A stretch of DNA of 8,439 nucleotides. It comes from Bacillota bacterium. Lineage in GTDB: Bacteria > Bacillota > DTU030 > DUMP01. The stretch covers positions 1 to 8,439 of the forward strand of contig JAAYHG010000293.1 in the NCBI GenBank assembly GCA_012735455.1, read 5' to 3'. The translations under genes and the position numbers were made by a program. Each line of letters opens with the position of its first letter. Positions within the stretch are counted from its first letter, which is position 1. Positions 2,932-8,439 of this stretch are shown piece by piece. The notes beneath the pieces are model-generated. The model saw nothing but the letters and a program-made list of their open reading frames with translations. It was not told where the DNA came from and searched no databases.

Positions 2932-3297
2932 ATGGAGAAACAGGCGGAAATGCCAAGCCAGGTAAGCGGTGGTTCAAAATTAAAAGAAATCAAGGAGCAA
3001 GTTGCCGGCCTCACTGGTGTAGGTGAGTTGTTCAAGATTCTTTCCGATGACACCAGGAACAAATTACTGTACGCCTTGCATCACAAGAAAGAGCTCTGTG
3101 TTCGGGATATGGCAGAATTGACGAACTTGAGTCTGCCAGCTGTTTCTCATCACCTGCGCATCCTGCGCAACCAGCGGCTGGTAAATGCCCGCCGTGTTGG
3201 CAAGGAGGTTTATTACTCCCTGCGCGACAGGCAAATCGTAGCCTTGATTGCCATGGCTGCAGTGCGAGCCCGAGCTTTGGGGTTGAATGTATTCTGA
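2932..3297 (+). CDS. ArsR/SmtB-family winged-helix transcriptional repressor
   Basis: A 121-residue DNA-binding protein, usual length for the family, with an AGGAG site (2920-2924) seven bases before the ATG. The N-terminal 25 residues are polar and charged. The winged helix covers about 30-98: LFKILSDDTRNKLLYAL, then ELCVRDMAELTNLSLPAVSHHLRILRNQ (recognition helix about 68-80), then the wing LVNARRVGKEVYYSL. ELC56VRD aligns with the alpha-3 metal site ELCVCD, but the second cysteine is arginine. In the alpha-5 site only D99 remains; the SmtB His and Glu positions are Q101, R112 and L115. C56 is the only cysteine. The usual metal sites are therefore absent and the signal is unknown. It lies 92 bases upstream of the radical SAM gene on the same strand with no terminator between, so it probably controls itself and that gene. 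Confidence 0.92.
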   Translation: MEKQAEMPSQVSGGSKLKEIKEQVAGLTGVGELFKILSDDTRNKLLYALHHKKELCVRDMAELTNLSLPAVSHHLRILRNQRLVNARRVGKEVYYSLRDRQIVALIAMAAVRARALGLNVF

Positions 3298-3389: not shown

Positions 3390-4781
3390 ATGCCAATGAC
3401 CAACACCTTGACAGCGGGGATGGAGCGTGCCAGGGAGCTTGCGGCGGAACTGGCTCTTGACCAAGCCCTTAAGTACCTGAACCGGAATCCAGACGAGAAT
3501 CTGCCCCGCATCCTTGACTTTGTTGAACGCTTGGCTCCCGATGAAGGACAAAAGAAAAACATTCGAGTGCTGAAGAAAAGACTGGCCGATGATGAACGAG
3601 CGTTTGCTCAGATAAAACGCCTTGCCTCTAACCAGAAGATGCTCAAGAACTTCATGAACATATGGGTGATCAAAGCTATTGTGCTCGGCGGTCCACACCG
3701 CAATGCCTTAATGAAGCGCTACAATGTGCATATTCCCTGCGCTATTCTGGTGGATCCAACCTCGGCCTGCAACCAGCGTTGCAGAGGTTGCTGGGCTGGC
3801 AAGTACCAGCAAATGGATCGCCTGGAGCCAGAGTTGTTGAACCGGATTCTGCGCGAGGCCAAGGACCTGGGGATCTACTGGATTGTATTCTCCGGCGGCG
3901 AACCCTTTGCCTATCCTGAGCTCTTGGACGTGGTGGCTGAGCATCCGGACCTCGCCTTCATGGCTTATACCAACGGCACTTTAATCTATGATAAGGTCGC
4001 CGACCGCTTGGCGGAGCTGGCCAATTTTACGCCGGCTATCAGCCTCGAGGGCTGGCGGGAAGAAGCGGACGCGCGACGGGGTGAAGGAGTATTTGACAAA
4101 ATCGTCGCCACCATGGACCGGCTGCGGGAACGGGGAATCTTCTTTGGCGCCTCGGTAACCGTGACACGCCAGAACATCGATACCATCTTTTCCGATGAGT
4201 TCATCGATTTCCTGGTCGACAAAGGTGCAGTGTACGCCTGGAGCTTCCACTACATCCCGGTAGGCCGAGGGCCCAACCTCGATATGATGATAACACCTGA
4301 ACAACGGGCCTGGTTGGTAGAGCGGGTGGCACAAATCCGCAATACCAAACCTATCCTAATTGCCGATTTCTGGAACGACGGGCACTTTACCGGGGGCTGC
4401 ATTGCGGGTGGTAAGATGTATTTGCATATCAACGCAGCCGGTGATGTGGAACCGTGTGCCTTTGCCCACTTTGCCAGCGACAATATTCATGACAAGAGCC
4501 TCCTGGAGGTTCTGTCCTCACCGCTCTTTACGGCCTATCAGGCACGTCAGCCTTTCTATAAGAAGAGCGCCTACGCTCCTTGTCCCATTATTGATGTGCC
4601 GCAGGCTTTGCGCGACATTGTCGCCGAGTCGGGGGCGCGACCAACCCACAGTGGAGCAGAAGACGTACTCACAGGCACTTCAGCAGCTTTCCTTGACCGC
4701 CGCTCGGCCCAGTGGCGTCAAGTAGCCGATACCCTGGAAGAACGTTATTATGGAACTGAAATCAAGAACGTAGGCAAATAG
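3390..4781 (+). CDS. Radical SAM enzyme, MoaA/PqqE-like, with C-terminal cysteines; substrate unknown
   Basis: A 463-residue protein starting at ATG 3390 behind a GGGGGAGG site. Residues 1-110 are mostly helical and charged. The core begins at about 117: CNQRCRGC gives C127, C131 and C134 (CX3CX2C, binding the SAM-coordinating 4Fe-4S cluster). It continues with FSGGEP (167-172), YTNGTLI (193-199) and ISLEGW (217-222). The C-terminal part GGCIAGG, NAAGDVEPCAF and APCPI supplies C337, C356 and C398, which could hold an auxiliary Fe-S cluster as in SPASM/Twitch proteins. The GGCIAGGKMYLHINAAGDVEPC stretch resembles a radical SAM family I recall as common in Clostridia and of unproven function. 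Peptide or small-molecule modification are both possible; no precursor peptide gene is adjacent. It is probably co-transcribed with the ArsR-family regulator and ends at the terminator at 4797-4858. Confidence 0.92.
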   Translation: MPMTNTLTAGMERARELAAELALDQALKYLNRNPDENLPRILDFVERLAPDEGQKKNIRVLKKRLADDERAFAQIKRLASNQKMLKNFMNIWVIKAIVLGGPHRNALMKRYNVHIPCAILVDPTSACNQRCRGCWAGKYQQMDRLEPELLNRILREAKDLGIYWIVFSGGEPFAYPELLDVVAEHPDLAFMAYTNGTLIYDKVADRLAELANFTPAISLEGWREEADARRGEGVFDKIVATMDRLRERGIFFGASVTVTRQNIDTIFSDEFIDFLVDKGAVYAWSFHYIPVGRGPNLDMMITPEQRAWLVERVAQIRNTKPILIADFWNDGHFTGGCIAGGKMYLHINAAGDVEPCAFAHFASDNIHDKSLLEVLSSPLFTAYQARQPFYKKSAYAPCPIIDVPQALRDIVAESGARPTHSGAEDVLTGTSAAFLDRRSAQWRQVADTLEERYYGTEIKNVGK

Positions 4782-7646: not shown

Positions 7647-8439
7647 GTGGGGAAAGGCCTGTTTGTACCACAACGGGTGTTTGTACAGAAAGAAGCCTTG
7701 GACTATGAAAAGGGGAAGCGATTAGTAGAGGAGTTGCGTTCACAGGGTATTCCCTTAAGTGTGTACAAACGCAGACTGCCCGCGGTGAGTTTCTCAAACC
7801 CCAGAGCGAGGTTTCTGGCACTCAAGCGGGTGTTGGCAGTAGGAGTCTGGGCAGGGCGGGAATTTCAGTCCTGTAAGCCTTCAGCCCATTACCAACTCCC
7901 TTTGATATCCGGCTGCCCCGGCCTTTGTGAGTATTGCTATCTCAACACGAATCTAGGTGGGAGACCTTACGTACGAGTGTATGTGAACACGGAAGAGATC
8001 TTGGCTCGTGCTCGGGACTATGCGATAAAGAGGCGGCCAGAGGTAACAATCTTTGAGGGATCGGCGACTTCTGATCCTATTGCCGTAGAGGGCTGGACGG
8101 GGTCCTTGGCCGAGGCGATTACGTTCTTTGCCCAGCTGGAGGAGGCTCGCTTTCGTTTTGTTACCAAGTACACGGATGTGAATGGGTTGCTGGAATTGGA
8201 TCACCGGGGCAAAACAGAAATTCGCTTCAGCCTCAATGCCGGTCGGGTTATATCTAAGTTTGAAAAAGGTGTTCCGTCACTGGCCCAACGTCTGGTGGCT
8301 GTGCGGAATGTAGCCCGGTCAGGCTACCCGTTGGGGATTCTTATTGCTCCTATCTTTCTCTTTACGGGCTGGCAGGCAGAATACCAGCACCTTCTTAGAA
8401 CCCTCCGGGATCACCTGGCAGATACAGGGGTTGACGCGG
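7647..8439 (+). CDS. Spore photoproduct lyase homologue lacking the catalytic cysteine (3' end off window)
   Basis: The first 264 residues of a radical SAM protein clearly homologous to spore photoproduct lyase, the light-independent repair enzyme for the 5-thyminyl-dihydrothymine lesion of spore DNA. Conserved stretches: LFVPQRVFVQKEALDY (5-20), SCKPSAHYQLPLISGC (75-90), GCPGLCEYCYLNTNLG (89-104; C90, C94, C97 form CX3CX2C), YVRVYVNTEEIL (108-119), RFRFVTK (168-174), EIRFSLNAGRVISKFE (191-206), ARSGYPLGILIAPIF (223-237). The radical-relay tyrosines Y96 and Y98, S142 and K174 are kept. The segment FEGSATSDP has alanine (GCG, 8064-8066) at residue 140, where characterised lyases have the hydrogen-donor cysteine (C140 in Geobacillus, C141 in B. 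subtilis numbering). It is either a distinct lyase subfamily or an enzyme of altered activity; I leave the splB symbol off. The frame is open to the edge; about a quarter of the protein is missing. Confidence 0.9.
   Translation, partial: MGKGLFVPQRVFVQKEALDYEKGKRLVEELRSQGIPLSVYKRRLPAVSFSNPRARFLALKRVLAVGVWAGREFQSCKPSAHYQLPLISGCPGLCEYCYLNTNLGGRPYVRVYVNTEEILARARDYAIKRRPEVTIFEGSATSDPIAVEGWTGSLAEAITFFAQLEEARFRFVTKYTDVNGLLELDHRGKTEIRFSLNAGRVISKFEKGVPSLAQRLVAVRNVARSGYPLGILIAPIFLFTGWQAEYQHLLRTLRDHLADTGVDA

Follow-up and report, generated by a model that had tools for sequence, protein, structure and literature searches.

Enzymes of the spore photoproduct lyase (SPL) family mend UV damage in the DNA of spores. 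Their repair chemistry is established, and a study by Yang et al. in 2017 reportedly dealt with a Clostridium acetobutylicum lyase, the C74 enzyme. For the Bacillus subtilis lyase, PMC3742179 describes what C141 does and what its C141A substitution changes, and PMC5368176 places C141 and Y99 on the same side of the pocket. The latter article gives the conserved cysteine of the C. acetobutylicum lyase as C74 rather than C141, projected opposite the conserved tyrosine across the pocket, and reports about 80% TpT and about 20% TpT-SO2- as the enzyme's products on the dinucleotide spore photoproduct. Here we analyze an 8,439-nucleotide contig from a Bacillota bacterium (JAAYHG010000293.1 of GenBank assembly GCA_012735455.1; the whole stretch is referred to below as the window), at the end of which lies an SPL gene with alanine at residue 140, the textbook donor site, and cysteine at residue 76. 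With a probability of about 0.9, we consider its product a member of the SPL family in which Cys76 likely donates the hydrogen atom that completes repair.

Residues 76 and 140 of the window lyase

The gene starts at a GTG codon with AAAGGAG just 5' of it, and its 3' end lies beyond the 8439-base contig; a 98% identical full-length relative of 345 amino acids (P0001) supplies the missing C-terminal part. The original prediction, made from the letters of the window, held that GCG encodes alanine at residue 140 within FEGSATSDP, that C90, C94, C97, Y96, Y98, S142 and K174 are kept, and that the numbering is that of the Geobacillus enzyme. All of this is borne out: the motif begins with F136 at 8052, every listed residue is present, including the CX3CX2C radical S-adenosylmethionine (SAM) motif with Y96 and Y98, and no gap falls between residues 76 and 140. 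The prediction was to be abandoned if a cysteine aligned at 140 or 141, and alignment with the Geobacillus lyases places none there; a cysteine shifted into position 140 by the alignment itself is ruled out by the ungapped 76-140 stretch relative to the Geobacillus chains. A search for a cysteine elsewhere in the pocket, also suggested there, turned up Cys76, which lies within SCKPSAHY and is missing from the earlier residue list. It is the sole cysteine outside the iron-sulfur motif among the 264 visible residues, and the only one outside the cluster motif in full-length P0001. By sequence comparison the window protein thus has a candidate donor cysteine in the pocket at 76 and none at 140, and it is the presence of Cys76 that decides how Ala140 is to be read.

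Among the Geobacillus chains aligned with the window protein, 4fhe and 4fhg carry Ser76 and 4rh0 carries Cys76 together with Ala140. The structure titles name a C140A mutant, a C140S mutant and, for 4rh0, a C140A/S76C mutant with bound S-adenosylmethionine (AdoMet), from which it follows that the wild type is Ser76/Cys140 and that the window protein naturally holds the residue pair engineered in 4rh0, presumably the structure described in the 2014 paper by Benjdia et al. In the Geobacillus thermodenitrificans enzyme (PDB 4rh0/4rh1) the pair was introduced into a Ser76/Cys140 protein, whereas here it is natural and accompanied by His81 and Gln83. B. subtilis SplB and the Geobacillus lyase share family, cluster cysteines and tyrosine pair with the window protein but differ in having Ser76 and in carrying the donor cysteine at 140, a position numbered 141 in B. 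subtilis. The C. acetobutylicum lyase resembles it in that a conserved cysteine about 15 residues ahead of the radical SAM motif region (C74 there, C76 here) replaces C141, and the arrangement of the window protein is likely that of this already studied Clostridium enzyme.

Family scores and fold point the same way. P0001 scores 452.2 bits against the spore photoproduct lyase model TIGR04070 (cut-off 400), and the truncated window protein, which covers 255 of 338 model positions, reaches 336.2 bits and so stays below 400; against PF20903 the window protein reaches 274 bits (cut-off 27). Both fall far short of TIGR03886, the spore photoproduct lyase family protein model (85.5 bits for P0001 and 86.6 for the window protein; cut-off 437.55), and fold comparison with solved structures assigns the predicted fold of P0001 to SPL. 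Judged on gene content alone, the host genome has two matches to small acid-soluble spore proteins (SASP) and SpoIVA above its cut-off. Protein and TIGR03886 searches of this draft, 93% complete in 355 contigs and therefore no proof of absence, found the window gene and no second, Cys140-type lyase.

Table 1. Positions of the lyase gene and its key codons in the window
Feature	Position	Strand	Remark
Spore photoproduct lyase gene, first 264 codons	7647..8438	+	Frame open up to the contig end
Codon 76, TGT, Cys, proposed hydrogen-atom donor	7872..7874	+	Ser in 4fhe/4fhg chains, Cys in 4rh0
Codons 81-83 (His81, Gln83), tend to accompany Cys76/Ala140	7887..7895	+	Coordinates calculated from the start codon
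Radical SAM motif CPGLCEYCY (C90, C94, C97; Y96, Y98)	7914..7940	+	Positions by arithmetic
Codon 140, GCG, Ala, site of the B. subtilis/Geobacillus donor Cys	8064..8066	+	Within FEGSATSDP

An either/or pattern of pocket cysteines

To place the window protein among its relatives we aligned 558 sequences (137 genome-search loci, 340 proteins, 80 named loci and the window protein), of which 526 cores, counting that of the window protein, are distinct. The proteins comprise the best 120 of 2970 nearest to the window protein, the best 120 of 2725 nearest to locus L124 (100 of them new) and the best 120 of 2496 for a Paenibacillus-type enzyme, and the named loci are the 80 top-ranking ones out of 582 for alignment A1; given this best-match sampling, the totals do not equal natural frequencies. 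The phylum search gave matches in 193 of 398 genomes, from which 110 places were taken (30 + 80). Weaker matches were inspected afterwards at 24 places in 19 hand-picked genomes, 10 of them belonging to the Asn76/Ser140 group described below and the rest Cys76/Ala140, Cys76/Ser140 or cut off, and 11 genomes with best matches of 1e-21 to 1e-26 were left out (G134, G160, G186, G210, G234, G280, G303, G324, G344, G383 and G396).

Residues 76/140 are Ser/Cys in 261 distinct sequences, Cys/Ala in 252, Cys/Ser in nine and another pair in four, and none of the 526 has cysteine at both sites. All 526 share Y96, Y98 and the three cysteines of the cluster. The best 120 of the 2970 nearest proteins all combine Ala140 with Cys76, so that neither a read error, already held unlikely in the original prediction, nor a lone mutation accounts for the alanine; with 252 such sequences, an open frame and conserved active-site residues, its view of a subfamily rather than a dead gene also stands. 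The 137 phylum-search loci, which include the window's own gene and some double entries, divide into 118 Cys/Ala, nine Cys/Ser, seven Ser/Cys and three others, and the 80 named loci into 76 Ser/Cys, titled Bacillus, Sporosarcina, Paenibacillus and similar genera of the Bacilli, and four Cys/Ala, all from metagenome-assembled genomes (MAGs), two of which are titled Bacillota, one Clostridia and one Pelotomaculum. Cysteine 76 combined with Ser140 and Asp81 forms a third pair, seen at nine loci (L020, L022, L064, L083, L105, L116, L117, L120 and L126); Cys76/Ser140 also occurs at the weaker-match loci L224 and L225.

Two further positions vary with the donor-site type. Across 119 representatives, His occupies position 81 in 80 of 88 Cys/Ala sequences, where all 21 Ser/Cys sequences have Glu or Asp and all nine Cys/Ser ones have Asp. 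Position 83 holds Gln in all 88 Cys/Ala sequences, Ala in 18 of the 21 Ser/Cys ones and Glu in six of the nine Cys/Ser ones. Because few evolutionary changes underlie the pattern, this linkage is only suggestive. The representatives were left after removal of L001, L007, L023, L024, L026, L027, P0273, sequences shorter than 240 residues and rows at least 66% identical to a kept row (93% for a preferred list); all 119 of the 558 entered a quick tree, built without sites 76 and 140 and leaving 53 of 116 inner branches open, and 78 of them a careful tree. The root is uncertain, since it depends on the very long branch of a single outgroup sequence, L025. The Ser/Cys rows fall in two places, one with the Geobacillus, Brevibacillus and Paenibacillus proteins and the other including a Limnochordia MAG, and the tree implies at least two donor-site changes; a single Ser/Cys clade is nonetheless not rejected (p-AU 0.392), and we therefore claim neither a single nor a repeated swap. 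The second place corresponds to a Ser76/Cys140 group apart from the Bacillus type, with FDGSCTSDP-like motifs (L124:101-1216 on the minus strand, and P0121-P0128, including the Limnochordia MAG), which is possibly a separate donor-site swap.

Proposed hydrogen return and competing explanations

On the strength of its residues, the lack of any sequence with both cysteines, and the family score and predicted fold of P0001, the window protein most probably represents an ordinary Cys76-type spore photoproduct lyase rather than an enzyme for another lesion. A [4Fe-4S] cluster on C90, C94 and C97 would cleave SAM, and the resulting 5'-deoxyadenosyl radical would abstract H6proR of the spore photoproduct, 5-thyminyl-5,6-dihydrothymine, which would then fragment to a thymine allylic radical. 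The substrate, Cys76 as donor and the transfer of the radical to Tyr98 are inferred: Cys76 would return the hydrogen atom, likely from the pocket side opposite residue 140 and Tyr98, and its thiyl radical would likely be handed to Tyr98 for regeneration of SAM.

Several observations weigh against this assignment. PMC5368176 regards a favorable donor position as less likely for C74 of the C. acetobutylicum enzyme, which, together with the roughly 20% TpT-SO2-, means that Cys76 may be an imperfect donor. Furthermore, that lyase is a studied enzyme compared here by description, so that C74 only presumably corresponds to column 76. Four of the 526 distinct sequences lie outside the three residue pairs: L024 ends before 140; L025 is Asn76/Ser140 and belongs to another group; L027, another kind of protein, reads Cys/Tyr in one alignment and Ile/Tyr in another, both unreliable at 24% identity; and P0273, a single Paenibacillus-type SPL, is Ser76/Tyr140 and lacks a donor cysteine at either site. 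Finally, SASP genes occur in 54 of 61 relatives and a lyase in 25 of the same 61 genomes; all 25 lyase-bearing genomes have SASP, yet so do 29 of the 36 without a lyase, which makes the association a weak pointer to function.

The original prediction offered another donor, a different lesion or a different nucleic acid adduct as explanations for Ala140; Cys76 supports the first, and the other two find no such backing. Action on another lesion or adduct that needs no cysteine donor would account for alanine at the textbook site, but is improbable given that Cys76 is kept in all 252 distinct Ala140 sequences, that P0001 passes the SPL equivalog model while staying far under the TIGR03886 cut-off, and that the predicted fold is that of SPL. 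Return of the hydrogen by a tyrosine (Y96 or Y98) or an external thiol appears very improbable. The invariance of both tyrosines, the existence of P0273 and the slow in vitro turnover of B. subtilis C141A (0.14 versus 0.41 per min; Table 1 of PMC3742179) are consistent with it, but it leaves unexplained why Cys76 is present in 261 of the 264 distinct sequences without Cys140 (the exceptions being L025, L027 and P0273), and the same article describes C141A kinetics without a lag phase, on which its authors based their exclusion of an intervening tyrosine donor. Gene decay with loss of the catalytic cysteine, to which Ala140 alone and a gene end beyond the contig might point, can hardly be reconciled with the open frame, the other conserved active-site residues, the near-identical 345-residue P0001 and the 252 distinct sequences pairing Ala140 with Cys76.

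A Cys101 group, neighboring genes and significance

A second SPL-like group with Asn76/Ser140 (L025:1456-2502 and L246-L260), in 15 of 398 genomes, has neither known donor cysteine. L025 lies below both NCBIfam cut-offs (TIGR04070, 220 versus 400; TIGR03886, 172.6 versus 437.55) and passes the Pfam model PF20903. A phylum search with it matched 22 of the 398 genomes at 1e-50, 15 through Asn76/Ser140 proteins and seven through ordinary lyases at 32 to 35% identity. All 15 members carry Cys101 and 14 of them Cys106, with Y96, Y98, S142 and K174 kept. The protein is the sole TIGR04070 match at 1e-20 in 10 genomes, all of which have SASP genes (10/10), and the remaining five contain a second match. 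The question of another donor or lesion is better suited to this group than to the window protein. We tentatively entertain a scheme in which one SPL fold hosts three mutually exclusive placements of the hydrogen-returning cysteine, each in surroundings of its own, namely Cys140 with Glu/Asp81, Cys76 with His81/Gln83 as in the window protein, and Cys101 in the Asn76/Ser140 group, the last acting as the sole lyase of some bacteria that have SASP; donor position, and with it the SAM-regeneration route, might then be a module open to evolution and not a constant of the enzyme.

Elsewhere on the plus strand of the window, 1668-2699 encodes a protein with Gmad2 spore-germination immunoglobulin-like, PrcB C-terminal and copper amine oxidase-type N-terminal domains, and 3390-4781 a 463-residue radical SAM/SPASM protein that stays far under the cut-offs of the 25 NCBIfam families shown, the best being NirJ2 (94.4 versus a cut-off of 500); an ArsR-type regulator gene (2932-3297) lies upstream of the latter.

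For the family, these comparisons settle an apparent paradox: a lyase without the textbook cysteine has one at a second pocket site, and this Cys76 type is the commoner one among the 137 phylum-search loci, the textbook Cys140 enzyme being rarer in that sample. The idea in the original prediction can be tested more sharply on the Cys101 group, and the either/or cysteine pattern, together with residues 81 and 83, provides concrete sites for studying radical return.
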